Shown here: positions 1 through 47,135 of the stretch, piece by piece | Position numbering within the stretch: position 1 is the stretch's first letter | How the letters are laid out: every line of letters begins with the position of its first letter | Source: Craspedostauros australis | Lineage: Eukaryota; Bacillariophyta; Bacillariophyceae; Mastogloiales; Achnanthaceae | Assembly (NCBI GenBank): GCA_026770025.1 | Contig: JAMXDE010000061.1 | Span: forward strand, 124,001 to 188,000 | DNA: 64,000 bases | Direction of reading: 5' to 3' | Made by a program: the position numbers and the translations under genes | The notes under the pieces: model-generated | Databases searched by the model: none | What the model saw: the letters and a program-made list of their open reading frames with translations, nothing else | Told to the model about the DNA's origin: nothing

Positions 1-2
1 AG

Positions 3-3000
3 ACTGACCACACCTGCGTAGGATGCATCCTTGCAGGGGTCGGTGAGATGACCACCAGCGACGCAGCGTGCCTTGTGGCGGAGGTTGTGCTTCACAGCGT
101 AGACCCATTGAAGGCGGATCTTCTGGAAGCCAGAGGGGACAGGGGCGCCTTTGCCGAGAGACTTGAAGGTGTGGTACCCGAAGAGTTGGTCCATCTCCTT
201 CTTCTCGGCATCGGCCCAGAGAGTGTTGCCGTTCTTATCGTCGAGTCGCAGCGCTTCCTTGTGGTTGCGGGGGACTTGGACGCCGAACTGGAAGGTGGGA
301 GCGTGGTTGAAGGTCTTGGATTTGTGGACCTGGCGCTCGAGACGATGGGTGCGGATGGCGAGGCGCTTGAGGCGCTTCCAGCCAGGCTCGTCGAGCAGCT
401 CGTGGCGGCGGCCGTAGGCAGCGCAGGAGACAGGATCATCCTGAATCATGATGGAGAGGGGTTCGGTGGAGGTGGAGCCGTCTCCCCATTTGACGATGAC
501 GTTGAAGCTGGATCCCTTGTAGGAGGGAGAGGAAGATGAGAGGGGACCCTCGTGTCCGATGATGGAGTCGAACTCCCACTTGGCGTCAGGGTCGTCGTTG
601 TGCTCCTGTTGCCGTTCGATGATGTCGGCGAGCTCAACGTAGGAGATGAGGTCATGCGTCTCCCCATCAGCCAGTGCGAGTAGCATCTTGATGCGTTGGT
701 GGTTGGCTGCGTCAAGGTCATTGACCTTTTGCACCACCTCCGCTTTGACTTGCTGGCCATCCTTCTCGTGGATGAAGGTCATCCCAACGAGATCCTCGGG
801 AGAGAACTTCGGGATGTGGACCTTGGCATTCCCCACTGTTTCAGGGTCTGTGCCGCGGCGGTCAGCCAGGATGGAATCGGCGAGGGAGTGTACGATGGGG
901 TCGGAGTCAGGAGGGACGGAGATGTCGTCGTCTGGCTCCCCATTCGCCACATTCATGGCATCAGAGCCATCGTCCTCCCCAACAATGGGGAAGGGGAAGT
1001 CCGCACGAAGATTGCGGGTGGCAGAGTCGTCGGCAGGTCGGATGGCAGACCGAGGAAGAAGTCGTTGGGTCTCGTCGTCAAGGACCCAGAAGGTAAGATC
1101 ATCGCCTTTGTGAAGGCAGGGACCGGCCCAGCGTCCACTGCGCTCCTTGGACTGGCTGGGGAAGGTGGGGTTGTCAACCCGGTAGTAGACAGGCTGCCAC
1201 CATCGGTAGGACAGGAACTTGGAGATGTCCGGTCGCTGTCCGAAGGCGGCTTGAAGGGGGGTGATGGAGCCAGCGGTGACCTGCGCGATGTGATTGAAGA
1301 GATCAACCACATAGAGCGTGCAGATCAGCCAGAAGCGGTCGGGAGTACCCGTGCGATCCATCACACCGTTGGTTGTGCGTTTGATATCCTGGATCCGGCG
1401 TTCCGCGCCGTTCTGGTGTTGATGCTCCGGCTCACTCTGGTGATCACGGATGTGATACTGCCGGAGGATCTCCATAACCTTGTTACCGATCTGCGCCTTG
1501 GCATTATCGGACATCAGTAGGTCGGGAGCCCCGTGGCGTCGGATGAAGTCACGGAGAGTGTCGGAGATGCGGCTCTCGGATGGCATGGGAAAGCCGGCCG
1601 TGAACCGAGAGTCGAGAGCGACGTACACCTGAAGCATGGTGCAGCCGCCATGGCCGGGAACCCCGTCGTCGTGAGCAGGGGTATCGGAGAAGAGCGTATC
1701 CATTGCAACCGTCTCATGGAGACGGTCGACGTTGGCCGCTGGGAACCGAGACTTGAAATGCTTGCGCATGGAGAAGCGCTCGGCGGTACGGTACCACTGG
1801 GAGGTACACCGAAGAGTGTCGCGAACGCGACGAGCTGGAATCCAGCCGAAGTGGGGTCGGAGAGCCTTGTAGTCGGCAGGCTTGCGAGTGGCAATGATGC
1901 TGCCCGGGTTGTCAGCGATGTCGGCTTGGCGAGCACCAGTGTAGGCCGTGAGAACGGTAGAGTTGTTCTCGCGGCGCTGGAGTGCTGCGGCGTCATCATC
2001 GTCGACGTCGTCGAGGTTCATCTCCTGGTCGAGGGAAGAAGGGTCCCATTCGTCGTCCGCGGTGAAGTCGACATGTGGATACTTGTCGAGTTCGGAGCGG
2101 GTGGGCTTGGCCATGTCCATGTAGGACAGGCCTTGCCGGACAGCCAGTGGGATGATGTGGCCTCCTGGTGTGATGATGGTCTGGCGACCTCCAGGGAGAT
2201 TCCGTGGGCGTTCGTTGACATCCATTCCGAAGGCACCAAGCTGGTTGGATGAATGGATGGTCTTGCCCTTTCCGTAGAGCGCATATTGGTGGAATTTACC
2301 AATGATGGGCCCTTCAGTGGTCTGGATGAGACCAGCAACCGTACCGATGTCGAGGTTGGCGATGGCAGAGTCACCAATGCCACTGACGTCGGCGGTGTGT
2401 CCTGTCTTGCAGAGAACGAGAACGTCATCGCCGGCCAGGCCACCATTGGCACCGCTGTCGACGAGAGAGCCAGATTGGTCCTTGACAAGCTTGTTGAAGC
2501 TGTACCGGACCACCGTGGAGTTGGCAAGGCGCCAGGTCTGGCCCTTGTAGACCAGTTGAGGAGTATCGTCAGACGAAGAGGTGGACTTGGTCTGTGCGAG
2601 AAGGCGATCGATGGCAGTGGACTGGTCACTGGCCTTGGAAGAGTCCGTGTTACCAGCGGATGGAGTTGCGGAAGGAGTGTCGGTGGTGCCCGAAGATGTG
2701 GCAGCGTTGTTGGCAGCTCGGTGGGAGTCAGCCTTTCCTTTGCCCTTGTTCTTGCGCCACTTTCCCTTTGCTTCGAGGAATGCCTTGCGTTGGTCCTTGG
2801 ACATCTCACGCCATTCATCATTGGGAATGGAACGACGGTCGTCCTTGGCGTAGTCCTTGCCATTGCTTTTGCCAGCTGAGCCGCCGGTCTTGGCGTTGTT
2901 GACCTTGCGCCGAGATGTGGTGCGAGGCTGGTTGGCATCGAGGGATTGTGCCTCATCTCGAACGAACTCGAGGAGGTCTTCAAAGGAGACACCAACCTTG

Positions 3001-4181
3001 ATGAAGCCGCGAGATTGCTTGTGACGTTGACGGGAGTTGGACTTCACGTTGGTGTAGGCCCGAGTCAAGTCGACATCAGGACCGATGGCGGTACGCAACC
3101 ATTGCTGCTTGACCGCCTCATCGACACATGCATCATCGAGCTCTTCGATGTCATCGAGCTTGGTTTCCCAGGCATCGAGGAATTGCTCGCGGGTCTTGGT
3201 CCAAGTCTGGTCCAGACGGAAGGCGACGATGGTGTCTCTGTATTTGATGGACAGAGTCTCGCCGACGACGCCACTGGTGTAGCTGTCAACGAGGTCGGCA
3301 TAGGCCGCGCGGCCATCGCAAGACTTCTTGTAGGCACGGATGATGCGCCGACTCTTGGAAGTCTTGACATGCTCAGTGAGCACGGCGAAGAGGTAGCGAT
3401 TCTGGCTCGCGAAGAAGGCCTCGTCCTTGGGTGCTGGCATGAAGTCCATGTCGAGATGGTGGTTGAGTCCATGAGAGAAGGAAAGAGTCTCGAAGGTCCG
3501 CATGAAGGTGAGGAAGTGCTTGTCGTCCTTCAGTGTCGGGAGCGACAGGCTCTCTCGCTTGGTTGCCTTGCTGAACTCCTTGACGTAGTCAGCCGGTAGC
3601 TCCATGGCATGGACACCTTGGAAGTTGGAAGAGGGTGCCATGGATGGAGTCACAGGCGGTTGCGGGAAGGCAGGGTCAGGCATCGAAGCCGAAGGATCGA
3701 ATGCGAAGTTCACATGCGGAGGTTCTTCAGGCACCGGACGGAATGCGGATGCTGGAGTGGTGTGGTGGCCCATGCCCATGCCCATGCCAATTGGAGATGG
3801 CACAGGTGTGCTTGCAGTCGAATGCGAGCGCGAAGAAGGGAGAGAAGGGTTGCTCTGCTCAGCCGTGAACGCCATGAAGGTAGCGCGATCCAGTTCGTTC
3901 CAGGTATCCTCATCCAGAATGGACTGGGTGAGGTACCACTTGCCGAGGTTCAGGATCTTGCGGATGTGGTTGATGCCGAGGGATGCGGTGAAAGGCTCGC
4001 CATCATCGGTGTTGCCACTGAGATGGAAGCTGCGAAGGTCATCCTCAGTGAGAGAGACGAGGTCGAGAGGGCTGATGATGTCCTCATGAGCGATGATATC
4101 GCGAGGAGTTGAGTCGGAAGGGATGCCGATGACACCGAGGATGTGATCCAAGGTGGCGAGGTCCGTCTCAGCAGTCGTCAT
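3..4181 (-). CDS. Ty1/copia Gag-Pol polyprotein, partial (element 1, cut by the window edge inside RT)
   Basis: The minus-strand frame starting at the ATG at 4181 stays open in every stretch I translated, down to the window edge (about 1393 codons). It opens MTTAETDLATLDHILG. The Gag part has a Met-Gly repeat (PIGMGMGMGMGHH) and no CCHC knuckle. The protease motif is VDSGANGGL, with the catalytic Asp near residue 575 (codon at 2457-2459). The integrase core shows AMDTLFSD (Asp near residue 828), then MSDNA and NGAERRIQDIK. The RT begins near the edge with ARCVAGGHLTDPCKDASYAG. Order is Gag-PR-IN-RT, as in Ty1/copia. No HHCC zinc domain is visible before the integrase core. It is collinear with the polyprotein at 40082-45541 but clearly diverged, so it is a different family of the same lineage. 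The start follows a PBS and a 306-bp leader. All long plus-strand frames here are shadows of this one. Confidence 0.88.
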   Translation of the reverse strand, partial: MTTAETDLATLDHILGVIGIPSDSTPRDIIAHEDIISPLDLVSLTEDDLRSFHLSGNTDDGEPFTASLGINHIRKILNLGKWYLTQSILDEDTWNELDRATFMAFTAEQSNPSLPSSRSHSTASTPVPSPIGMGMGMGHHTTPASAFRPVPEEPPHVNFAFDPSASMPDPAFPQPPVTPSMAPSSNFQGVHAMELPADYVKEFSKATKRESLSLPTLKDDKHFLTFMRTFETLSFSHGLNHHLDMDFMPAPKDEAFFASQNRYLFAVLTEHVKTSKSRRIIRAYKKSCDGRAAYADLVDSYTSGVVGETLSIKYRDTIVAFRLDQTWTKTREQFLDAWETKLDDIEELDDACVDEAVKQQWLRTAIGPDVDLTRAYTNVKSNSRQRHKQSRGFIKVGVSFEDLLEFVRDEAQSLDANQPRTTSRRKVNNAKTGGSAGKSNGKDYAKDDRRSIPNDEWREMSKDQRKAFLEAKGKWRKNKGKGKADSHRAANNAATSSGTTDTPSATPSAGNTDSSKASDQSTAIDRLLAQTKSTSSSDDTPQLVYKGQTWRLANSTVVRYSFNKLVKDQSGSLVDSGANGGLAGDDVLVLCKTGHTADVSGIGDSAIANLDIGTVAGLIQTTEGPIIGKFHQYALYGKGKTIHSSNQLGAFGMDVNERPRNLPGGRQTIITPGGHIIPLAVRQGLSYMDMAKPTRSELDKYPHVDFTADDEWDPSSLDQEMNLDDVDDDDAAALQRRENNSTVLTAYTGARQADIADNPGSIIATRKPADYKALRPHFGWIPARRVRDTLRCTSQWYRTAERFSMRKHFKSRFPAANVDRLHETVAMDTLFSDTPAHDDGVPGHGGCTMLQVYVALDSRFTAGFPMPSESRISDTLRDFIRRHGAPDLLMSDNAKAQIGNKVMEILRQYHIRDHQSEPEHQHQNGAERRIQDIKRTTNGVMDRTGTPDRFWLICTLYVVDLFNHIAQVTAGSITPLQAAFGQRPDISKFLSYRWWQPVYYRVDNPTFPSQSKERSGRWAGPCLHKGDDLTFWVLDDETQRLLPRSAIRPADDSATRNLRADFPFPIVGEDDGSDAMNVANGEPDDDISVPPDSDPIVHSLADSILADRRGTDPETVGNAKVHIPKFSPEDLVGMTFIHEKDGQQVKAEVVQKVNDLDAANHQRIKMLLALADGETHDLISYVELADIIERQQEHNDDPDAKWEFDSIIGHEGPLSSSSPSYKGSSFNVIVKWGDGSTSTEPLSIMIQDDPVSCAAYGRRHELLDEPGWKRLKRLAIRTHRLERQVHKSKTFNHAPTFQFGVQVPRNHKEALRLDDKNGNTLWADAEKKEMDQLFGYHTFKSLGKGAPVPSGFQKIRLQWVYAVKHNLRHKARCVAGGHLTDPCKDASYAGVVS

Positions 4182-4487
4182 GATGAGCGATGGACGGATG
4201 GAGAGAGTGGATGCGGATGCTGGAGGCTGAAGGATAGCTGAGGCTGGGGTGCACTGACTGAATCGTCTTCTGGTGCGGGAGGGTGCTGCAGGAAGTCTTG
4301 GATGGCTGAGTGGGAAGGCCCGAACTCAGCAGAGGAACCGAAAGGAGGGCGTTCTGCGAATGCGAGAAAGCCGAGGGAAAGCCGAAATCACGTCGTCACG
4401 TGATGGAAGGTGAAAGGATCGCTCGTGGATGGACGAGGGATGAAGGATGGATGGATTGTCACGCAATCAATTCAGTAGGTGAAAGCT

Positions 4488-4501
4488 TGCGACTGTTAAT
4501 C
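4488..4501 (-). other. Primer-binding site of element 1, complementary to tRNA-Asn(GUU) anticodon arm
   Basis: Read on the minus strand, this 14-mer is GATTAACAGTCGCA and directly follows an LTR end (…CTAACA). Its complement, TGCGACTGTTAATC, fits tRNA nucleotides 27-40: stem strand TGCGA, seven-base loop CTGTTAA with anticodon GTT, U33 and A37, then TC pairing back to GA. The same 14 bases follow the LTR of element D at 38497-38510, and the two sequences diverge immediately outside them. This is half-tRNA priming, as known for Drosophila copia with tRNA-iMet. Confidence 0.75.
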
Positions 4502-4702
4502 TGTTAGAACGAAATCAAGGATGGGATTCCGCACCGAAACGTAGAGTGATCAGATCGTTGTTGGGGTGAGGATGAGTGTTTGTTATTGAGTGTTATTCGT
4601 ATGGTAGTATGAATGCAGGCGAGCTCACAAGATGGATTCTTGAGAACTGTGAGCATGAGAGAGGCATGACATGATCTCATGCAATTGCAAGTAAAATTAA
4701 CA
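4502..4702 (-). repeat. Putative 5' LTR of element 1
   Basis: The inner end is fixed by the adjacent PBS and reads CTAACA on the minus strand. The outer end is proposed at 4702, where the minus strand starts TGTTAATTTT. That gives a 5-bp inverted terminus (TGTTA/TAACA) and a 201-bp LTR. The 3' LTR lies outside the window, so neither the outer end nor a target duplication can be confirmed. Confidence 0.5.
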
Positions 4703-6574
4703 CGGAGACAACACGACAAATGTGCGTGTTACTGCGTGAAGATGAGGTGCAAAAGGTCAATGAACAAAACACCGCGATAGCCCGTGTTGTGAATTACGTC
4801 TTCTCACGATGTTGCTAGTAGTACGATCACACGATTGATCGTATTCACTTGAGAAGGTCATGGCAAGATTCGCACGTGTCACACCCTAGATCCAAGTCTG
4901 TCCTGATTGGGCAGATTGGTTCATCTTGGCAAGAAATCAATTTCCGCGACATTTTGGAACTGTGTTTGAAGGGAAAACGATTCTTGCGACGCGAAATGCG
5001 ACACAAATTTGACACAACGGATTTTCGACCAAAATTTCCGTTCGGAACGGAAAAGGTAAGAAAAGTGGAGATTTCTGATTGGTCGACGGGTGTCGCTATT
5101 GTTAGAGATTTAGCGTGCGCTAATAGATATGGAGATAGCAAGCAATGCTGTGTGTCACAGTACTGTGCGATACGGCACGCGGTGTACAGGAACTCGAACA
5201 GATGTGCATGGAAAACGTTGATAGTCGTCCAATCCAACCTGACGAGCACTTGCAACACACTCCAAAGGATACATCCACGAAGTTCGAAGTCTTAGATCCT
5301 TTTGGAAGGTGCTCCAATCGAACAGCATGTGCTGCCATGTGAGGAGTTCACAGTACTGCTACACACATCATCACTTGCTAGCTCCATATCCAGATTTGAG
5401 CACCTTGCAGATGGATCTAAGGCCTCAAGCTTTGTGGCTGTAACCTATAGAGTGCGCTTGGAGTAGTGGGGTTGTTATGATCAAGTATGCTTGACCTTTT
5501 GTATGCACATATGGCCAACACAGTACACACAGTGACCAAATGGTATCTCAGGAACTGACTACAGGTGATCTGAACCTCCTTGCAGTTGAATGTAGACCGT
5601 TCCAAGGTAGGTACATGCCAATGGTTGATGTCAGTATGCAATATAGTTGGTTCGACCCTCTGCTCAACAGGATTCATCAACAACATCACAAACTAGAGTA
5701 CTTTACACTGTCCCACCAAGAAATGGTTGATGTGTTGACTCTGTGGCTAAATCATTATTTTCGAGTCTGTCGCAGTGATACGCCGGCCATTTCATTGATC
5801 CAATCCTCGTGTCAGGCACCAACACGACCTGGTTAGTCCACTTTGGTCTCCAAAAAGACCTGGTTAGTGAATTTGCTCATAACTTCCACACACAACATTC
5901 ATATTCTCAGAAGATAACAGTTGATAGGACACATTTGGGCCCACAACTAGATCTGTTCTATTGGATTGAGTAATCTCTTGTGTTCCAGTGCTGTCCGGAT
6001 TTGTCCAGATTTGTCCAGATTTGTCCGTACGTGTCCGAATGGGTCGAGTCTGTCCGTATATGTCCTACATAGTCCGTTAGATGCAAGTTCTTACTTCAAT
6101 GTTCACGTCCTACAGAATCTGTAACTTTCTGTGGCAAAAAATACTTATCTCTAATTCGTGTCCTGTAAGACTCAAACTGGCTTTTTTCACTTTATTCTGG
6201 ACAAATTGTTGGGTGTTCCAGTTCAGAGCGCCCAAACTGAATTCTCATCAGTTCGCCGAGGGGGAAGTTCGCATCCCGCCCCTCGAAAAGTGTCTCTATC
6301 AGGTTATGACTCCCTTGTGGGACTGGTCGTGACTGGGTGAGCTGAGTGCGATAACTCTCTATTGTGTGAGCATCACACCACATCTGGGAGCCATGGTAAT
6401 ATAGATAATTTCCCTCAGGTCTAAAAACAAAGACCCAACAGGATTCATTCGAATTGGCAACCACACAAACAAAAATGACGGCAACGACAGGCAAAATGGG
6501 TCTCCTGCGCGATGCATTGTTCATGCGTGTACAACCAATTACTCTGCTCTGCTCTACTTGCTTAGTCTGTCTCT
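4703..6574. other. Unassigned spacer
   Basis: I recognise no gene in these 1.9 kb. Open frames are short (up to 148 codons at 4849-5295 plus), show no known motif, and overlap on both strands. It lies downstream of the DDE transposase pseudogene and upstream of element 1's LTR, so it probably holds the 3' end of the DDE transposon. I could not find terminal inverted repeats for that element. Confidence 0.5.
5992..6076. repeat. Degenerate short tandem repeat (TGTCC-based)
   Basis: Seven or more copies of a roughly 10-bp unit resembling TGTCCGGATT, TGTCCAGATT or TGTCCGTA follow each other and become less regular toward the right. No coding capacity is evident. Confidence 0.6.
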
Positions 6575-22480: not shown

Positions 22481-22689
22481 CTAGTACGACTAATTCGACA
22501 TCCAAAACCGATTTTGTCACCAGACACAAGAAAGCCTCAATTGACATTCCGCGATTGGCGAAGAACGAACCTCCTTTCGAAGAACTTAGTGCGACATCAT
22601 GTTGGTCCTACTTCGGACAAATACAACGAGGCATCGATGCCGCTGGCCCAAATGATCGAGTCCCGTCAATACCGATGACAATCAGCGCC

Positions 22690-22846
22690 TAAATCTAAAT
22701 AAGTCGAATGACGACTATTTACTTCGAATGACGTCTAAATAAATCAAATGACGTCTAAATATATCTAATGACGTCTAAATAAATCTAATGACGTCTAAAT
22801 ATATCTAATGACGTCTAAATATATCTAATGACGTCTAAATGAATCG
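22690..22846. repeat. Tandem array of a 20-bp unit with TGACGTC core (array 1)
   Basis: About eight head-to-tail copies of a unit like AATGACGTCTAAATAAATCT; the first copies carry the variant GACGACTATTT. Variation is almost confined to the A/T-rich half. TGACGTC is the core of a CRE/bZIP site. No coding frame spans it. Confidence 0.85.
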
Positions 22847-23642
22847 CACAAGTTTGTCACTCGTGACCCAAGAAGACAAGGTCGGGAAGTGATCGAACTA
22901 ATCAAGTGCGCTTGGTCACACAAGCAAACCACGAAATGGTGGCTCTCCTCGACTTTGCCCCTCTCTGGACGGATCACAACAGAGACGAGTGTGGAGTTGG
23001 AGTGTTATTGTCTATTATACGTTTTATTTTGGTTGCGATTGTATAAATGTGAAGCAGACTGTACAAAGAGTTCGTGGTCAACCTCGAAGAGTTCTGATCT
23101 GTTGTCCATTTGGTACTGTATTGGAAGAAGAGGAGCGGGAGAGAGCCATTGGAATGATATGGCTGCCGCTCATGCCAGCGGCTTTGCTTTGTTGGAAGGA
23201 GGAAGCGTGGGGCGGGGGGAATCTCATGGCGATGGCTTCTTGTGGACGGCAAGATTTGTGAGCAATGCACAGAGAAACACAATGCGACTACTCTTCGAAC
23301 AGGGAGACGCCTTCACTGACGCTGCAAAGACAAATGCAGAACAAACGAAACGAGCATGACATCACACTGGTCTAAAGCGATGTAGGATGCAACACATGCG
23401 TGCATCGGTGTGTATTGCATTTGTATCGCGTTCGCTACACTACGTTGATACTTGATGTTGTGGAGTGGTTTGCATGGCTTGGCCATTCCAAACGAACGCG
23501 CGAGCGCCATGTGTTGCTCTCATCGAATCCCGTCTGTGTATTCCTGTTTGTTGGTCTGTTTCCATTTCATCAATCGTGACGTGGCAAGAGCCTTGCTTAG
23601 TCGATCGAGTCAGTTGAGCCAAGTGGCGTGTCCCGTGAAACA

Positions 23643-23827
23643 AATCGAATGACGTCTAAATAAATCGAATGACGACTATTTATTTCGAATGACGTCTAAA
23701 TAAATCAAATGACGACTATTTATTTCTAATGACGTCTAAATAAATCTAATGACGACTATTTAATTCGAATGACGTCTAAATAAATCTAATGACGTCTATT
23801 TAATTCGAATGACGTCTAAATAAATCA
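23643..23827. repeat. Tandem array of the same 20-bp unit, alternating forms (array 2)
   Basis: About nine copies. Here units ending TCTAAATAAAT largely alternate with units ending ACTATTTATTT. The A/T halves are reverse complements of each other, so adjacent units can pair. The array lies about 0.8 kb from array 1. Confidence 0.85.
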
Positions 23828-24866
23828 AGGGTTTCGTGTTGGCACGATTGCTCGGGATTTAACCAAGGCAAACTTAGCGAGGGTCATTCTCGGAGTTTCT
23901 GCCCATGTGCCCCATAAATGAAATTGGCGTCTGTGACCGGCAAAGAGTTCCCGAGAACACCAGTTTGAATCGAGAACTTTCTTCTCGGGAAAACAGTTGT
24001 CATCGCCAATACAGAAAGCTCTGATTGGCTGGGTCAGTCACATCGCAGATTGACTAATTCGACCCATTTTGCCCGGTGTCCCAGAGTGTGGTGTTGTGTG
24101 GTAGACAACAAAGGGTTCGTGTGAGGTCGTGTTTCGGGTCGCTGCGCTTTGCCTCGGTCCATCAAGCTCTGCGCACCACATCATGTCACCACACAAACAA
24201 ACACCCATCACAAAACTCACCATGATGCTTGTTGCAAGTGATGTTGCTTTTCATTTGATCAGTTGGTCTGCGGCTCGTTGCTGCAACTGCACTGCTGTTG
24301 CCTCCTCCTTTTACTGTTGTTGTTGTTGTTTATACTGATGCTACTGATGGAGTTGATGTCACTGTGGATGGTACTGTGATGTTGATGCTATCCAACTGTT
24401 GTGGTAATGATGCAATGAGCACGGTCAACACCGACGCTGCTGTTGGAGTGTGCTTGGATTGATGTTATTGCAAGCTTGCTTGGTGACCCACTGTGCTTGT
24501 ACGTATCGTGGATCTGGCTGCTGCTGACGTGATACAGTTGCAAACGATGGCTGCCACGTTGTTATCTCTTTCGCTCTGTTGGCTCTGATCGGTTGATTGG
24601 CCGAGTAGCTCACGATCATCACATGTGACTACAAGTACTCGCTGTATTCTAATAATCACGCACTGATTATCCCCTCACACGAGGGTTGCCTCGAAAGCTT
24701 TAACGTCGCCGGCGTACAGCTAGCCCTGACGGGCCGACTGCGCTCGAACGACCTACCTAGATCTCCCACATCTCCGTCTACCACGGGTTGCCAATTCCAT
24801 GGGCCATCAAACATACCGCACTGGGCACACAGCTGTCACTGTAATGCACTTCATTCTCTTTTTCTG

Positions 24867-26558: not shown

Positions 26559-26640
26559 CGTTTATAAACGATAGATCAGGGCGAGCCCGCTAATCGTATC
26601 GTGCGAGGAAGACCAACATCATTCAAGAGCAGCAGGCTGA

Positions 26641-37410: not shown

Positions 37411-37790
37411 AACAAGGACACCTGGCTCGCCGATAGCGGAGCTTCGTGTCACATCGTCAACTCGGACGCCGCTCTCTTCAACGTGCGGCATATCAAGTCC
37501 TTCGTCCAAATGGGAGACAGCACGAAACTGGACTTTCCCAAGATGGGATCCATTCGCTTAAAAGTCAAACAGCGAGACAACACTGGCCACGTCATCCGGC
37601 TCGATGATGTGAAGTACACACCCAAGATGGCGGTGAACCTTTTCTCCACGAACAAGGCTCTGTACAACGGTTAACAGCTTGGTAACAACGGCATTCTGAT
37701 GGACATCATCAACGGATCCGGAACGAAGATCGTGTTCGATCGAGTCTTCCCCACATCCAACGGATTCATCACAGGAGTGCAGATGCATCC
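37411..37790 (+). pseudogene. Truncated copia pol fragment (element C)
   Basis: It starts inside the protease region (NKDTWLADSGASCHIVNS) immediately after an LTR and follows the A/B/E polyprotein for about 125 codons. A TAA at 37672-37674 (GGTTAACAG, where A has GGTTACCAG) breaks the frame. It ends at ATGCATCC, where element D's LTR begins. Confidence 0.85.
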
Positions 37791-38496
37791 TATCAACATC
37801 TAGATCGAAATTAGGTACCCATCTCCCATGACTGAAACGTGATTCACTATTTTTTGATTCGACTCGATTTGAGAGTATAGTCGAGTGAGTCTTGATACAC
37901 GATTGATATTTGGTCACTACGGTCATCGAACATGACGTAGGCACTGACATCATCGTATGACGTCAGAGGATCGGTCATTGTGATCCTCGGAATCGAGATT
38001 ATGTTTTAGTCATGGTACGCTGACCTGTCTAGCCATGCCGAGTGCATCATCGAGCACGTGGCAACAATACTTAGGATCCAGAACAACATCGTCAGGGGTG
38101 ATGCATGCACCCCGTCGACGTAGACGGATCAATCCATATGTGATCAAACAGAGATCAAGATTAGGCAAGACCAGGAGAGATGAAGAAAGACCCAAGGGCA
38201 AGAATAACACGGGATATCGTGTAAATCAACATGCCATCTTGGGCAATGTTTTAGGAAAGACTGCGAGATAAACCACGAGGTAATCGAGCAGCATGTTAGC
38301 AACCGTGCAATAGGCACCATCATTAGAAATAGGAGATCATCATCTCATAATCCAAACCCAATCATCAATTGAATACAACCATAACTTAGCAACAACTATC
38401 ACCAAACACACCAACTTCACCTGACGGATTGATCACCCTGGCGGAGGAGTAAGTGCAGTGTTTGGTGCCTGTCCTGTATTGAATTGCTGATTATCA
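37791..38496 (+). repeat. 5' LTR of element D
   Basis: Begins TATCAACATCTAG and ends GCTGATTATCA, bounded by comparison with 45566-46279. It starts with TA rather than the usual TG. The C sequence it interrupts could also read TATCA here, so the left edge is uncertain by about 5 bp. Confidence 0.8.
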
Positions 38497-38510
38497 GATT
38501 AACAGTCGCA
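38497..38510 (+). other. Primer-binding site of element D, complementary to tRNA-Asn(GUU) anticodon arm
   Basis: GATTAACAGTCGCA abuts the LTR. Its complement spans tRNA positions 27-40 with anticodon GTT, and as I recall it agrees with the yeast tRNA-Asn anticodon arm. The identical 14-mer follows the LTR of element 1 (4488-4501). Confidence 0.78.
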
Positions 38511-40081
38511 GTCTCTATCGGAGTGCATGAACGAATCCTGAAGCGCTGTGCTGCCTTGGTGACATCACGCTGTCCCCTTCCTTTGATTCCGGCCCAAGAA
38601 AGGCCCAACGCGTTCGTGACGACGAACCCAATTGCTCGTGTGTGCAGATTGCTACGTGCCGCCACACCCGCTTTGTCCTGCTAAAGTGCAGAAAGGCTCA
38701 CCCGCTGTTGCGAATATCGCAGGCGGAGTAATTCATTCCAACAACCAAGTTCCGCATCACTGCGTTACTTACGATAGCTGGTCAGCTAAAAGACAAAGGT
38801 GTAATAGCCCGTGAAGCAAGACACACGTAAACACTTGGCCTGGTCAGCATCGACAAAGGTGAAAGCCCGTGAAGCAAGAAACACGTAAAAACTTGGAGCG
38901 GAAAGGCCCTCTGAAACCTATCGGCAATCTCATCTCGAGTTGTCGCGACCAGGTCAGTCGTTAACACTAAGTCTAAGCCGTACTTGCGATCGGTTAACGT
39001 CCTACGGGACGCAGAGATAACTGCTAACCAGACTAGCGTCTGCCCTTGACTGGGGAAGAAACGTGATCGGTAGAGATACCGCGGAAGCAACCCGTAAAGC
39101 TAGCATTGTGCTGATAGCAATATCACCAAGTGAGTCTAACGACACCGGAAGGCAGGTATACGCTGGACGAAAACGCGAGTGGTGGAACCAGGTGAATTAA
39201 AGCGACTGCTGGCACCTGGGGGGCACCGCGCTCATTAGCGTGCAAAATCCTGTTAGCATCAGGTACATCGGGCAAGCTGCTGCCAGATCTAAAAGACGTA
39301 TAGCAAGCTGATCCGTGGCACTCAAAGGAGGCACGGATTGGATCGAAGGTCCAACTGGGTGAAACCAAAGGTGCACCACATCCTGGTGGAGCACAGCTGA
39401 ACAAGCGCAAGAATACGGCGTTCGGGGAGACGAAATCCGAACGGGCAGGGCCATCCAACGCGCAATCCATCCGCGACGTTTCATCGCTTTTCAAGACCAA
39501 CAAAATAACAACAATTCCACCAACAACGCCCATTTGCGCTCAGTCCACCTTCTGATTGGCTACGAATTCCTTCGGTTCGTACCATCACTGGCGCGTCATC
39601 ACCGGCTCACAACTCCTTTGCTATCCCAGTCATTCATCTGACTTCGGGTCGCGCGCCAACACATCGCCCAAACGGGAAATTCACACGGTCCTGGTTGACA
39701 TTTTCCATCGGTCATCCTTCGCCTCGGATTAAGTACGGTCATCTTCGCGTTCATCAATCGGGAAATTCACACGGTCCCGTCTGGCCTTCCATCCGTCAGT
39801 CAGTCACAATTCGAGACATCGCGCACGGATTGACCGCAGTCCACTCGTGACAACGTGCTACCGGTAACGCCTTCGCCATCACTGGCGCTTTGCATCCGGC
39901 ACCACTTCCATTCCCGACGAATCCCAACAAGCGCAGAAACCCACCGTCACATTCCGGCGAACACTTCGACATCACAGCGGACGCCACAGTCATTTCCAAG
40001 TGTGACCACTTTCCTGGGAGCTGCGGGAAAATACTCGTCCGATAAAATAGCAACAAATCCGGAACAACACCCAGCTACACG
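38511..40081 (+). other. Long untranslated leader of element D
   Basis: 1571 bp without a convincing gene. It contains a two-copy tandem repeat of about 60 bp (38779-38899; both copies hold GCCCGTGAAGCAAGA and ACACGTAAA) and a separated repeat of CGGGAAATTCACACGGTCC (near 39677 and 39760). The 400 bp from 38900 look non-coding and may be structured. Confidence 0.6.
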
Positions 40082-43000
40082 ATGTCCAACCCAATCCCAA
40101 TCAACGACCCCATCCTGGCGCACGTCCTCAGCGTTCTCGGATATGACGACTCATCTACTGAATGGCGTATCTTGCACACCGAAGAGATCCAAACCATCAT
40201 GGATTTCGCTTCGCTCCATCGCGAAGACATGCTCGATATGGACGTCACCATCCAGGTGCCTGATCCAGGATCCGACTACGTAGCCCAACTGTCTAAGGTA
40301 GCAATCCGGAAATTCATAAATGCCATTGGCTGGTTCAGTGTTCAACCTAATCCCACCGTAGAGACATGGCGGGAACTCAACCAAGCTTCGTACATGGAGT
40401 ATGTCGCCCGGACGTTCACACCATCGCCTGCATCCTCAACCGCCATGCCCGATGGAACCACCAGCGCATTCCCCTTCGAACCAACGAAGACCGAACCAAC
40501 GGAGAAGACCGGACGCGACCTCGCCGCAGATTTCAGCCGTAGCATCAAGCGTAACATTAGCGACTACCCAAAGTTGTCTGATGACAAGTACTTCGCTACG
40601 TTCCATCGTCGTCTGCGTGCCACCGCTGCTGCTCATGGCATCTCCAATGTTCTCGATACTGACTACGTCCCTTCCGATGAACAAGCCGAGCTCTTCCAAG
40701 TGCAGTCCACCTTCCTGTTCAACGTGTTTGTATCCAACCTGCAGACCACGAAGAGTAGGAAGTGTGTCACTCCATACGAATCGATCTGTGATGGCCAAGC
40801 CGTCTACTGCATGCTGGTTCGCGAGTACACCACTGGTGCTACTGCGGTCAACACCATCCGACGCATCCGCGACGACATCATCAAGTTCAAGCTGGACAAG
40901 CAGTGGCGCAAGACTCGTGAGCAGTTCCTGGACCTGTGGCAACACAAGGTGCACGAACTCGAGGCATTGCGGGACGATCCGATCGACGACGCAACGAAGA
41001 AGGAGTGGTTGACCAACGCCATCGAGGCCGACAAGGCGCTGTACCAGTCTATCTTCCAGACTGACTACCTGCAGACCGCGATCCTGGCCTACTCACCCGG
41101 CAAGTCCGCAACCACCATGGAGTTCGACACCCTCGTGGAGCTCGTTCGGTCGTACGCTGTTCAACTCGATGGCCACGACGCCAACAAGCCCAAGCCGCCG
41201 CGCCAGGTCAACAACACCGACCAGCGCAAGCAACGCGGGAAGGATAAGGACGATGGACCCAATCTCTGGAAGCCCAACAAGGACTACAGCAAGGAGACGC
41301 GGGAACGGCTGCCGCGAGAGGAGTTCCAGAAGCTGTCGGATAAGCAACGCAGCGACTTCCTCCAAGCCCGGCGAGCCAAGTCTGGACGTGGTAAGAAGGA
41401 CAAGACTAGACGCTCCGCCAACAACACAAACCGCAGTGACTCCTCATCCAACCAGAACGACCAACAGGACACCCAGATCAGCGACAAAGGTAGTAACAAC
41501 AACGAGTCTAGTTCTACCGCAGGAACAGCAATCAACCGTATGCTATCCAGTGCCATGTCTAGCGCGTCTGGGAACCCGCCGACTACCCTCGTCATTGACG
41601 GTCGCACCTACACCCTGTCTCACACGAACGTATCGTACAAGTTCAACAACGCGAACGTGACTGTGCAAGGCGCATTGGTGGATGGAGGTGCGAACGGCGG
41701 TCTCGTTGGAGATGACATGCTGGTGATGGAGTCCACGTCCAACCGTGCTGATGTCTCTGGAATCGGCGACGCAGAGATCAAGGATCTGGCGCTGGTCACA
41801 GCCACCGCTGTCATCCAGACCACCTCAGGGCCGGTGATCGGTTGGTTCCATCAGTACGCCAACTACGGGAAAGGGCGCACCATCCATTCTGCCAATCAAC
41901 TCGCAGCGTTTGGATTGGATGTCAACGAGAGACCCAAGAACCTCCCTGGCGGTCGGCAAACCATCGTCACGCCAGATGGATTCATCATCCCGCTCACCGT
42001 GCGTCAAGGTCTCGCGTACATGGACATGCACAAGCCAACTCAGGCAGAGCTAGACGATCTGCCACACGTGTTCTTCACCTCCGACCAAGAGTGGGACCCA
42101 TCTGTCCTGGACGGGGAGGCTGATCTGGACAACATCCCCGCAACCGAACGCGGCGAAGACGACGACATCGACATCACCATCTCCAAGTGCGTTCAGTACA
42201 CTCAGTCCGCTGCAACGCTTGGGAATGGGGAGAAGGCGGTCAAGGCCGGGCCACGCAACATCGTGGGTAAAGCGCCCAACTTCCATGCGCTACGGCCGTA
42301 CTTTGGGTGGATTCCAGCGGACCGCGTGCGTGACACTCTTGCATGTACTACCCAGTGGTACCGCATGTCTGAGCGTTATCCCATGCGCAAACACTATAAG
42401 TCTAGATTCCCCGCAGCCAATGTCAACCGACTACACGATGTTGTTTCCATGGACACGTTGTTCTCTGACACGCCTGCTCATCATGATGGAGTCCCCGGAC
42501 ACGGTGGATGTACCATGGTACAGGTGTTTGTGGGATCCAACACGCGCCTCACAGCGGCGTACCCTCTGGCAAGCGAGTCCCATGTTCCCCATGTTGTCCA
42601 GGACTTCATTCGGGAGCATGGTGCCATGGACGTGTTGATGTCCGACAATGCCACAGCGCAGATCGGAGGCAAGATGAAGGACATCCTCCGGCAGTACTGC
42701 GTTGCAGACCACCAGTCCGAACCACACCACCAACATCAGAATCCTGTCGAGCGACGCATCCAGGATATCAAGCGCACCACCAACGGCATCATGGACCGAA
42801 CTGGCACCCCTGCCAGGTTCTGGCTCATCTGCACCTTGTACGTCGTGGGGCTACTCAACCACCTGTCGCAGTCCACAGCCGGTCACATCACACCCATCCA
42901 AGCCGCCACTGGCCAACGTCCCGACGTGAGCAAGTATCTCAACTTCCACTGGTGGGAGCCGGTGTACTACAAGGTTGGGAACGCTGCCTTCCCTGGCACC

Positions 43001-45541
43001 ACGCAAGAACGCCGTGGGCGCTGGGCTGGACCGTGCGAGCACAAGGGTGACGAACTGACGTTCTGGGTACTGGATGATGCAACGCAACGGCTGTTGCCAC
43101 GCTCGAGCATCCGACGTGTGTCTGATGACGCGCGCAACCTTCGGGCGGACTACCCCCTGCCTGATTCTGGGGAGGGTGGTAACGTGGGTGACGAAGCTAG
43201 CGCAACCGAAAATCCAGAAGATTTCGACAGTGACAGCACACCTAAAGCTAGACAACCCGTTGTGCATGCACTATCTGACCTGGTAGCCACATCACATGGA
43301 GAATCAGATCCAGGTGTAGTCAAAGTCCCCAAGTTCAGTCCTGATGAGCTGCTCGGGTTGACCTTCCTCCATCAACAGGATGGTCTCAAGTGGAGAGCTC
43401 GAGTGATCCGCAAGATCAAGGACGGTGACGCAGCCAACCATGACAACATCAAGATGCTCATCGCATACGGCGACGACGACACCGAGGAGCTCATCGCATA
43501 CACGGATCTAGCTGACATCATCGAACAACAACACGAGCAGGAGATCGGCGACGGGGAGATGTGCGTTTTCAAAGCCATCACCGGTCATGAAGGTCCATTC
43601 CACTCCAGTCACAGCAAATACAACGGCTCCTCCTACAACGTAAAGGTACAATGGGAAGATGGCAGTGTGACCATGGAACCACTGGATGTGATTGCCAAGG
43701 ACGATCCTGTGTCATGCGCGAAGTATGCCGCAGACAACAACCTCCTTGGTCTGCCTGGCTGGAAGCGATTCCGTAAACTAGCAAAGAGAAAGAAGAAACT
43801 CAATCGTCTCATCAATGCTAGTAAACGCAAAACACGTGCACAAGGTCCTATCTTCAAGTTTGGTGTTCAGGTTCCACGGAACGGAAAGGAAGCACGCCAG
43901 CTTGACGAGAAGAACGGCAACTCCAAGTGGGTAGACGCTGAGAGAAAAGAAATGGCTCAGCTCCACGAGTATGGCACGTTCAAGGATCTCGGAAAGAACA
44001 CTCGAAAACCAGACGGATACAAGCAGATCAAGCTCCTCTGGGTGTACGACGTGAAGCACGACCTTCGGCACAAGGCAAGATGCGTAGCAGGAGGCCACCT
44101 AACGGATCCTTGCAAGGATATGGCATATGCTGGAGTAGTCAATCTCAGATCATTCAGGATTGCACTGCTTGCTGCAGAACTCAACAACCTCAAGCCCATG
44201 GTGGGTGATATTGGTAATGCCTATCTAGAAGCCTACACAAAGGAGAAGATCTGTTTTGTAGCCGGTCCTGAGTTCCAAGAGTTTGCTGGTCACATGATGA
44301 TCATTGTGAAAGCGCTCTACGGACTACGCACATCCGGTGCTCGATTCCACGAGTCTCTGGCCGACACACTCCGAGACATGAAGTTCTTTCAGTGCAAAGC
44401 TGATCCGGATGTGTGGATGAGGGATGCTGGTAGATGCTGGGAATACATCTGTGTGTACGTAGATGATCTGATGGCCGTCATGGAAGACCCACAGTCATTC
44501 TTCGACACGCTCATCAACAAGTACAAGTACAAGTTGAAAGGTGTAGGACCAATCAAGTACCACCTCGGCGCAGACTTCGACCGTGACAAAGACGGAACCC
44601 TGACTATGAGCCCGCAATCCTACATCAAACGGATGCTGGCGAATTACGAACAGGTGCATGGGGAGCTTCCACGGACCTACACCAGTCCCATGGAACACAA
44701 CGACGCTCCCGAGCTAGACACATCGCGCGAACTAAACCCTGTAGAAACCCGACAATTCCAATCACTCATTGGCGCCCTTCAATGGTGCATCACATTGGGT
44801 CGGTTTGATATTGCTGCAGCCGTGATGACTTTGTCTAGATTCAGAGCCCAACCCAGGATTGGTCACATGGACCGCGCTAAACGTGTGTATGGATACCTCC
44901 GAAAGCGTTCTGACGCCGCCATCAGGTTCAGAACGGGAATTCCAGATCACGAGCGCTACTTTGAGATCCCTGACCATGAATGGATGTACTCTGTGTATGG
45001 TGACGATGAAGAGGAAACCGCAGACGACGATCCAACACCCAAGGGCAAGGCAGTTCGAATGACGACGTTTGTAGATGCCAACCTCATGCACTGCAAAGTG
45101 ACAGGCAAATCTGCAACTGGTGTTCTCCATCTGCTCAACCAGACACCCATCGAATGGTTCAGCAAGCGCCAGACCACCGTCGAGACTGCAACCTATGGAT
45201 CGGAATTCGTCGCGGCAAGACAGGCAACAGAGCAAGTGATTGCGATGCGCCTCACTCTTCGTGCAATGGGGATTCCACTGGATGGACCCGCCTGGATGTT
45301 CGGAGACAACCAGAGCGTGATCACATCCTCCACCATTCCCAACAGTGTGTTGTCCAAACGACACAATGCATTGGCGTACCACCGCGTGCGTGCCGCAGTA
45401 GCTGCGAAGATCCTGCATTTCTGCAAGATAGACGGAACAGAAAACGTAGCCGACGTCATGACCAAGTTCCTTCCATGGGCAAAGTACTGGCCGTTAGTGA
45501 GGCCGCTTCTATTTTGGAAAGGAGAGACTCTGGGTGGATGA
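40082..45541 (+). CDS. Ty1/copia Gag-Pol polyprotein, intact (element D)
   Basis: 1819 residues, one frame, ATG at 40082 (MSNPIPINDPILAHVL). Gag (about 1-500) has no CCHC knuckle but a basic Arg/Lys stretch (RRAKSGRGKKDKTRR). The protease motif is VDGGANGG (Asp534), with Gly where element 1 has Ser. Integrase: Asp791 (SMDTLFSD), Asp855 (MSDNA), Glu890 (NPVERR); no HHCC zinc domain before it, only FHALRPYFGWIPADR. RT: KARCVAGGHLTDP and YVDD at 1459-1462. RNase H: TFVDAN, YGSEFVAAR and FGDNQSV near the C-terminus. Order Gag-PR-IN-RT-RH defines Ty1/copia. All DDE and RT residues are present, so activity hinges on the protease. Confidence 0.93.
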   Translation: MSNPIPINDPILAHVLSVLGYDDSSTEWRILHTEEIQTIMDFASLHREDMLDMDVTIQVPDPGSDYVAQLSKVAIRKFINAIGWFSVQPNPTVETWRELNQASYMEYVARTFTPSPASSTAMPDGTTSAFPFEPTKTEPTEKTGRDLAADFSRSIKRNISDYPKLSDDKYFATFHRRLRATAAAHGISNVLDTDYVPSDEQAELFQVQSTFLFNVFVSNLQTTKSRKCVTPYESICDGQAVYCMLVREYTTGATAVNTIRRIRDDIIKFKLDKQWRKTREQFLDLWQHKVHELEALRDDPIDDATKKEWLTNAIEADKALYQSIFQTDYLQTAILAYSPGKSATTMEFDTLVELVRSYAVQLDGHDANKPKPPRQVNNTDQRKQRGKDKDDGPNLWKPNKDYSKETRERLPREEFQKLSDKQRSDFLQARRAKSGRGKKDKTRRSANNTNRSDSSSNQNDQQDTQISDKGSNNNESSSTAGTAINRMLSSAMSSASGNPPTTLVIDGRTYTLSHTNVSYKFNNANVTVQGALVDGGANGGLVGDDMLVMESTSNRADVSGIGDAEIKDLALVTATAVIQTTSGPVIGWFHQYANYGKGRTIHSANQLAAFGLDVNERPKNLPGGRQTIVTPDGFIIPLTVRQGLAYMDMHKPTQAELDDLPHVFFTSDQEWDPSVLDGEADLDNIPATERGEDDDIDITISKCVQYTQSAATLGNGEKAVKAGPRNIVGKAPNFHALRPYFGWIPADRVRDTLACTTQWYRMSERYPMRKHYKSRFPAANVNRLHDVVSMDTLFSDTPAHHDGVPGHGGCTMVQVFVGSNTRLTAAYPLASESHVPHVVQDFIREHGAMDVLMSDNATAQIGGKMKDILRQYCVADHQSEPHHQHQNPVERRIQDIKRTTNGIMDRTGTPARFWLICTLYVVGLLNHLSQSTAGHITPIQAATGQRPDVSKYLNFHWWEPVYYKVGNAAFPGTTQERRGRWAGPCEHKGDELTFWVLDDATQRLLPRSSIRRVSDDARNLRADYPLPDSGEGGNVGDEASATENPEDFDSDSTPKARQPVVHALSDLVATSHGESDPGVVKVPKFSPDELLGLTFLHQQDGLKWRARVIRKIKDGDAANHDNIKMLIAYGDDDTEELIAYTDLADIIEQQHEQEIGDGEMCVFKAITGHEGPFHSSHSKYNGSSYNVKVQWEDGSVTMEPLDVIAKDDPVSCAKYAADNNLLGLPGWKRFRKLAKRKKKLNRLINASKRKTRAQGPIFKFGVQVPRNGKEARQLDEKNGNSKWVDAERKEMAQLHEYGTFKDLGKNTRKPDGYKQIKLLWVYDVKHDLRHKARCVAGGHLTDPCKDMAYAGVVNLRSFRIALLAAELNNLKPMVGDIGNAYLEAYTKEKICFVAGPEFQEFAGHMMIIVKALYGLRTSGARFHESLADTLRDMKFFQCKADPDVWMRDAGRCWEYICVYVDDLMAVMEDPQSFFDTLINKYKYKLKGVGPIKYHLGADFDRDKDGTLTMSPQSYIKRMLANYEQVHGELPRTYTSPMEHNDAPELDTSRELNPVETRQFQSLIGALQWCITLGRFDIAAAVMTLSRFRAQPRIGHMDRAKRVYGYLRKRSDAAIRFRTGIPDHERYFEIPDHEWMYSVYGDDEEETADDDPTPKGKAVRMTTFVDANLMHCKVTGKSATGVLHLLNQTPIEWFSKRQTTVETATYGSEFVAARQATEQVIAMRLTLRAMGIPLDGPAWMFGDNQSVITSSTIPNSVLSKRHNALAYHRVRAAVAAKILHFCKIDGTENVADVMTKFLPWAKYWPLVRPLLFWKGETLGG

Positions 45542-45553
45542 ACAAGACTCCCG

Positions 45554-45565
45554 ACCATAGGGGAG
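45554..45565 (+). other. Polypurine tract of element D
   Basis: ACCATAGGGGAG precedes the 3' LTR start directly; the purine run AGGGGAG is the likely plus-strand primer. Confidence 0.55.
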
Positions 45566-46279
45566 TATCAACATCTAGATCGAAATTAAGGTACCCATCT
45601 CACATGACTAAAACGTGACTCAATATTTTTGGTTCGACTCGATTTGAGAGTATAGTCGGATGAGTCTTGATTACACGGATGATATTCAGTCACTACTGTC
45701 ATCCGTCCTGACGTAGTCACTGACATCATCAATGACATCAGAGGATCAGTCAGTGTGATCCTCGGAATCGAGATTATATATTAGTCATGGTATGCTGACC
45801 TGTCTAGCATGACCGAGTGCATCATTGAGCACGTGGCAACAATACTTAGGATCCAGAACAACATCGTCAGGGATGATGCAAGCACCACGCCGACGTAGAC
45901 GGATCAACCATTATGTAATCAAACAGAGATCAAGGCAGACAGGATCAGACAGAGATGAAGAAAGACCCAAAGGCGAGAATAACACGAGATATCGTGTAGA
46001 CCGACATGCCATCTTGGGCAATGTTTTAGGGAAGACTGCGAGAGAAACCACGAGGTAATCGAGCAGCACATTAGAAACCCGTGCAATAGGCACCATCATT
46101 AGCAATAGGAGATCATCATCTCATAATCCAAACTCAATCATCAATTGACACACCAACTAATAGCAACAACAACAACACCAAACACACCAACTCCACCTCC
46201 TGGCTTGATCACCCTGGCGGCGTAGTAAGTGCAGTGTTTGGTGCTCCCATCTTGTCCTGTGTGTAATTGCTGATTATCA
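45566..46279 (+). repeat. 3' LTR of element D
   Basis: 714 bp, TATCAACATC…GCTGATTATCA. It aligns along its length with 37791-38496, with small indels. Confidence 0.85.
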
Positions 46280-47135
46280 CAGTACATGCCAATCATACAG
46301 GAACGAGCAGAGCAATCAGCACACTCCAAGCTGCCATTTCTGCAAAGGACTACCGTGGAAGTGACAAGAAGATGTGATGGCAACGTTCAAAGTCCAGCAA
46401 GGATGTCGAAGGCAGTAAAAGCAGAACTTGCTGCAGCAAGAAAACGTGTGAGGAAGAGAATAGCATCCAAAGAGGGATCCAGCAAGCGCCAACGAGCGCA
46501 ACTATAGAAAGAGATTATGATAACACCAGAGACCAGAGAAACCAAAAAGTAGAAGCAAGCAAAACTATTACAACAGATGAACGCAAATGCCAAGACAGTA
46601 CCAAAGTTGGCTTGCGTTAACCATAGAATGGATACAAAAAAGGTGGCACAAACAGTGACAACAGCCAGCAAAAAGACAAAAATCCATAAGGAGACTGCCA
46701 ATGGCATAGGCAGAAGCAGACAGTTGCAAGCAAGGGCTGTCAAGGCTGCAGCAACAAAGGCCAGGAACAAGGAACTGGAGAAGAGGAGTGCTCTTGCTCA
46801 AGGAGAAAATGATGAGAGAGTGTCCATGGCAAGAAATCAATGACAAGCATGTGGAAGTCTCTACTAGGCAAAGTCCAGAACGCAGCCAAGTGGTTCACCT
46901 ACAAGGCAGTGCTGGCAGAGGAGGGCCGGTTGATCCACAACTTGGTGAAGGGCATGATGAAGCAACAATACAGATGGTGTGGGAAAGCAACAGCAACCGC
47001 AGGCAAAACAACACCAGTATAAGAAGTCCAAGCATTCATCAGCATAGCCACTGACGGACGCAAAGAGAAATTTGGTGTGACACAAGTTCCCAAGATGGAT
47101 GAACAACGCGAACAGATCAAAAGGTTGTAGCAGAT
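46280..47135. other. Unassigned spacer between D and H
   Basis: Small plus-strand frames (46286-46507, 46577-46843, 46840-47022) encode Lys/Ala/Arg-rich peptides without known motifs. They are collinear and may be a decayed gene, but I cannot name one. Confidence 0.35.

Follow-up and report, generated by a model that had tools for sequence, protein, structure and literature searches.

Copia retrotransposons include one genus that is set apart by priming from a short piece of a tRNA. Two copia-type elements of the diatom Craspedostauros australis raise the question of which tRNA, and which part of it, would start their reverse transcription. Both lie within a 64,000-nucleotide stretch of genomic DNA, hereafter the window. 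A first-pass annotation had placed the identical 14-mer GATTAACAGTCGCA next to the LTR ends of both elements, here called D and element 1, and had described these LTRs as unrelated. The complement of the 14-mer had been read as tRNA positions 27-40 with anticodon GTT, and a cleaved tRNA-Asn had been proposed as the primer of the lineage.

The site and the two elements of the window

The features of the two elements are as follows (PBS, primer binding site; PPT, polypurine tract).

37791..38496, plus strand: 5' LTR of D, TATCAACATC...GATTATCA
38497..38510, plus strand: putative PBS of D, the 14-mer GATTAACAGTCGCA, complement of host tRNA-Asn(GUU) nt 27-40
40082..45541, plus strand: open frame of D, 1819 aa; residues 1309-1523 match RVT_2 (E 4e-23)
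45559..45565, plus strand: PPT of D, AGGGGAG, adjoining the 3' LTR and assigned by position
45566..46279, plus strand: 3' LTR of D, sharing 87.5% identity with its 5' counterpart
4488..4501, minus strand: putative PBS of element 1, the 14-mer GATTAACAGTCGCA again
4502..5125, minus strand: 5' LTR of element 1, TATTAGCGC...TTCTAACA
1..4325, minus strand: frame of element 1, part of a 1912-codon stop-free frame that continues past the window into locus L059

Both copies of the 14-mer were found where the annotation had put them. In D, GATTAACAGTCGCA begins at the first base 3' of the 5' LTR, and a search of the whole window allowing up to two mismatches returned no third place (the shuffle mean at that setting was 0.5). 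The LTRs of the two elements are indeed unrelated, with no real similarity between them (best E 0.19), and their reverse transcriptases (RTs) are 69.5% identical over 416 aa. The RT of D is of the RVT_2 type (E 4.1e-23, 82.7 bits versus a cut-off of 31.6), as is that of a more distant element, L063 (E 7e-24). At an E-value of 0.01, no PDB relatives of the D RT were found by sequence. In the L060/L063 stretch, the region upstream of the RT gave a sub-threshold integrase (rve) match (E 0.0067); in D no such match was found.

Element 1 has the LTR pair, target-site duplication, PBS and PPT expected of a Ty1/copia (Pseudoviridae) element. Its 3' LTR lies beyond the window at C59:121939-122562 and is identical to the 5' LTR at 623 of 624 positions; the element spans 7187 bp, with 624-bp LTRs, the PPT TTTGGGGAG and ATATC target duplications. 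Around D, the LTR pair and the PPT are present and a target-site duplication is absent. Since, in addition, its LTRs differ by 12.5% and a shortened element of another family (the A family) lies alongside, the D region (37411-46290) is probably a recombinant place. Elsewhere in the window, two 20-bp tandem repeat arrays separated by several hundred bases occupy 22634-23887, and an 847-aa open frame at 19337-21880 gives a sub-threshold match to a Tc3-type transposase HTH.

Fit of the site to the host tRNA-Asn(GUU)

The host genome (a 74.8-Mb assembly of 90 contigs) has 61 light-harvesting matches, and these proteins with their PDB relatives indicate a red-lineage alga of the chlorophyll a/c type, probably an ochrophyte. 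It was searched with the complement of the 14-mer extended by GCA, which closes the anticodon stem. Five places were located in this way. They are five tRNA-Asn genes of identical sequence, at each of which ARAGORN calls the anticodon GTT, and in all five the anticodon arm is TGCGACTGTTAATC, with no difference from the arm that the annotation had derived from the element site. The complement of GATTAACAGTCGCA starts at tRNA-Asn nt 27 and spans nt 27-40 exactly, covering the anticodon stem on its 5' side, the loop with GUU and two bases of the 3' strand. The proposed position and anticodon are thus borne out. In both D and element 1, the predicted pairing of the site with these nucleotides is -21.9 kcal/mol, as compared with -4.9 to -14.5 kcal/mol for the acceptor 3' ends of two host tRNAs that were tried.

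Some LTR elements prime themselves by folding the 5' end of their RNA onto the site; Tf1 does so, and the same is predicted for plant TAR elements. In another copia type of this genome, a palindrome occupies the same place (see below). For the present elements, self-priming appears extremely improbable. A Tf1-like form was rejected because the site finds a complement of at most 5 nt in the LTR of D and 7 nt in that of element 1, whereas a tRNA matches it exactly.

Judged from complementarity and position, the 14-mer is very probably the PBS of a copia-type clade primed by the 5' half of tRNA-Asn(GUU). In such a mechanism, the host tRNA would be cut in the 3' strand of its anticodon stem, between nt 40 and 41, as a primer ending at C40 requires. 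The 5' part would then act as primer, with nt 27-40 paired to the site. The 3'-OH of C40 would thereby come to lie at the LTR-adjacent base, from which minus-strand strong-stop DNA would extend through U5 and R.

Retention of the site across copia elements

Exact copies of GATTAACAGTCGCA number 293 genome-wide (138 + 155), and the reversed control has none. Five of them are the tRNA-Asn genes and 288 lie elsewhere. The dinucleotide CA directly precedes the site in 222 of these 288 copies, while 18 (288/16) would be expected for a random dinucleotide. Thirty-nine of the 288 were read, namely the two in the window and 37 further places with 36 distinct sequences, which were obtained from 50 records. 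All 39 resemble LTR junctions. Among the 37 places, CA precedes the site at 30 and TA at 7. The exact 14-mer was itself the query that retrieved these places, and for 30 of the 50 records the query also included the CA. The places therefore cannot prove that the site is conserved, and only tests that start from the RT can do so.

By similarity of their upstream DNA, the 36 sequences fall into eight clusters with 9, 7, 7, 5, 4, 2, 1 and 1 members, the LTR being deduced in most clusters from the common upstream repeat. One single-member cluster, L047, ends like element 1 and may be a rearranged copy of it. D, element 1 and two miniature elements show both LTRs in full, with the site adjoining the 5' one. 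The LTR starts resolved in the tRNA-Asn clade are TA (TATTAG, TATCAA, TAATAG, TATCAG) and not TG, and the ends are CA or TA. The miniature element, found at loci L006 and L011 (positions 1295-1957 in element orientation), measures 663 bp. Its 206-bp LTRs are identical at 206 of 206 positions, the 5-bp target duplications are CCGGT and ATATA, and its PBS is the tRNA-Asn 14-mer. The LTR also holds a tRNA-like stretch (Rfam tRNA, 35.4 bits with a gathering threshold of 29), at which ARAGORN calls no tRNA.

Extension of the tRNA-Asn match beyond the 14-mer requires a C as the next base. Of the 37 places, 32 have A, 4 have G and one has C at this position, so that the match ends with the 14-mer at 36 and reaches nt 26 at one. 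A two-part PBS was also considered by scoring the pairing of downstream bases with tRNA-Asn nt 1-26; over nine sequences, drawn from seven of these clusters, the mean z was -1.23, versus -0.69 and -0.85 for two control tRNAs. Within the first 30 nt behind the 14-mer, L003, L013, L014, L039 and L011 have a second block in common, CTAC(A/G)TC with CTGA further on, whose putative pairing with the 5' arm of tRNA-Asn is weak.

Another small RNA, or another tRNA containing the same 14-mer, could in principle take the place of tRNA-Asn. Room for it is left by the 39 copies read out of 288 and by the partial survey of host tRNAs, in which 63 of 1610 first-look candidates were scored. We consider it very unlikely, as the copies read all look like LTR junctions, ARAGORN found no tRNA gene in 37 three-kb loci around copies of the 14-mer, and the anticodon bases and the stem bases 27-29 both match Asn exactly. 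The complement of the 14-mer, present in tRNA-Asn, is absent from the host tRNA-Met sequence found. As far as these searches reach, no other tRNA offers the longer match that the annotation had named as grounds against its reading. In viral contigs, a search with the D RT gave no match; a 16-mer, CAGATTAACAGTCGCA, matched three of these contigs and was taken for chance.

Retention of the putative tRNA-Asn site was then assessed from the protein side. Among 1503 first-look candidate relatives of the D RT, 100 were scored, comprising 63 rows at 96-100% identity and 37 at 72-73%. The rows used were 23 on contigs C1-C9 and one on C12 that was checked by hand, all within the range of the first 100 listed places of the 14-mer, which ends at C12. 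The 14-mer lies 3.9-5.4 kb upstream on the same strand in 20 of the 23 RTs, and the C12 RT also fits (site 5357 bp away), which makes 21 of 24. In the remaining three the closest copy lies further upstream, at 6.6, 13.3 and 13.3 kb, for which nested insertions are a conjectural explanation. Moreover, an RT on C17 (L113), picked blind to its upstream DNA, has the exact site 4.4 kb upstream. The L001 family, with an LTR ending in CTATTA, also keeps the site. The RT of this family (L001/L063) lies 6.4 kb downstream of the site and is 39.8% identical to that of D, as seen in one copy in which about 1.4 kb between the two stretches is unread. In L063 (2188-3999), the L001-type open frame goes on for about 600 codons past the RT match, where there is no Pfam hit.

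A midpoint-rooted tree was built from fourteen hand-chosen RT fragments of the window and selected loci. Seven RTs of site-bearing elements stand on one side of a branch supported at 100/100, and six of them do so at the same support when L113 is left out. The tRNA-Asn-site label requires one change on the tree versus a shuffled mean of 4.9. Three RTs of an iMet type, described below, group at 96/98 (95/98 without L113), and three of a palindrome type group weakly at 48/8 (59/16 without L113). WA, L061 and L063 are long branches flagged by the tree tool; WA and L061 are without the tRNA-Asn label, the PBS of L061 being unread in this set.

Taken together, complementarity to the tRNA, abutment to the LTR and retention in one RT group, across unrelated LTRs and RTs about 40% identical, are seen directly, and the comparison with related elements that the annotation had suggested shows the site kept beside different LTRs. 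Because D and element 1 belong to one RT group, their common site was most simply inherited rather than acquired twice. These observations support the earlier proposal of a lineage primed by cleaved tRNA-Asn; from them we infer the cut itself, a nuclease that would make it, the use of the product as primer and the start of the cDNA.

Other copia clades and known half-tRNA primers

Elements L065 (C8), L067 (C29) and L068 (C2) carry a different sequence, CGCTTCCTCTGCGCAACG, behind the 5' LTR. A loose pattern located host tRNA-Met at three zero-mismatch places, all called by ARAGORN, and the corresponding stretch, printed for two of the three, is CGTGGCGCAGAGGAAGCG. By our reading of the sequence, this tRNA is the initiator. 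Two stricter iMet patterns were also run; one gave no match and the other gave three, one of them a tRNA-Met on the small contig C90, which was taken for an organelle. The 18-nt site fits tRNA-Met raw nt 6-23 at 17 of 18 positions, with the misfit at G9. The primer of this iMet type would accordingly end in the D stem, at canonical nt 24 or, as the CA that closes the LTR can pair with tRNA-Met too, as many as two bases beyond it. The 16-nt core of the site has 36 genomic copies, at least one of which (C9:1509396) is not at an LTR end. When 62 of 150 RT rows were entered, the core was found 3.8-5.2 kb upstream in 30 of the 32 rows that have frames of at least 1000 aa and are outside a group with 1499-aa frames; it was upstream in none of the 21 rows of that group and none of the 9 short rows.

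L064 and L066 have no tRNA site next to the 5' LTR but the palindrome CGTTTTAAAACG, and in the A family of the window this position (26559-26570) is taken by the palindrome CGTTTATAAACG. Their position is like that of the different palindrome of the fungal element GalEa, described as a conserved hairpin site (PMC5445492).

These other clades also bear on the reading of the 14-mer as a conserved RNA signal, for packaging, dimerisation or regulation by tRNA fragments, with priming elsewhere. In the diatom Phaeodactylum, tRNA-derived small RNAs matching the D-loop/anticodon region are described (PMC4247016), which lends this reading some substance. We consider it very unlikely, because zero spacing to the end of U5 together with an exact tRNA match are the usual marks of a PBS, and the other clades bear candidate sites of their own at exactly that position.

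Priming by the 5' half of tRNA-Asn therefore remains our preferred reading, and half-tRNA priming as such is known. Copia itself reportedly uses tRNA-iMet, and Tca2 is said to be primed by a tRNA-Arg half. Hemiviruses are described as priming their cDNA from a half-tRNA at its nt 40 (PMC1181622). The clade described here resembles hemivirus-type elements (copia, 1731, Ty5, Osser) in its copia-type RT, a putative primer end at about nt 40 and a short tRNA segment (PMC1181622, PMC8515867). The hemivirus feature of a PBS complementary to an internal tRNA segment with the primer end near nt 40 is thus present, whereas the usual, though not obligatory, hemivirus primer, tRNA-iMet, is not the one that fits here. 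Ty5 uses tRNA-iMet, whose internal 3' end has been ascribed to RNase P (PMC5371799), and Osser a half tRNA-Met (PMC6317226). The primers of copia, Ty5 and Osser are therefore tRNA-iMet or tRNA-Met, in contrast to the tRNA-Asn(GUU) of this clade.

Closer parallels are found in plants and fungi. The plant lineage Bianca likewise has a non-initiator half-tRNA primer that is constant within the lineage, although it is tRNA-Ile (PMC6317226). The same source names tRNA-Asn for 2% of the elements in plants, but does so among sites said to fit tRNA 3' ends in the main (PMC6317226). FunCo1 of filamentous ascomycetes has a PBS, ATTAAGAGTCT, whose reported complement is an internal stretch of tRNA-Lys (PMC5445492). 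By our own reading this is the same place in the tRNA as here; the tRNA and the fungal hosts differ. The CoDi elements of diatoms are a diverse and abundant set of Ty1/copia elements in algae of the same broad kind, and the main text of the paper contains no match for 'primer binding' or 'tRNA' (PMC2806351). In the portions of the literature searched, with few subscription journals and no supplements, no half-tRNA-Asn or D-stem primer was found, and tRNA-Asn as a half-tRNA primer is apparently new.

A wider pattern is possible, which we put forward tentatively and with somewhat less than even confidence. The copia clades sampled here may all avoid the 3' CCA ends of tRNAs, each having its own start, whether half a tRNA-Asn after nt 40, a 5' fragment of tRNA-iMet ending near nt 24, or a palindrome. 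As a further guess, the anticodon-stem half-tRNA primers (iMet, Ile, Lys and, here, Asn) all decode ANN codons and hence have U36 in common and probably t6A37, features by which tRNAs destined for cleavage may be marked.

Two clades of this genome lend themselves to a natural comparison, one that would combine the usual cut position with another tRNA and one that seemingly uses a different piece of a tRNA; a single host tRNA pool meets different reverse transcriptases and different primers. A practical consequence is that PBS finders restricted to CCA-type ends would overlook every copia type with a PBS read in this study. Such a D-stem primer, if true, would add a further cut position to those of tRNA-derived primers, with 5'-tRNA fragments acting directly as primers of retrotransposition.
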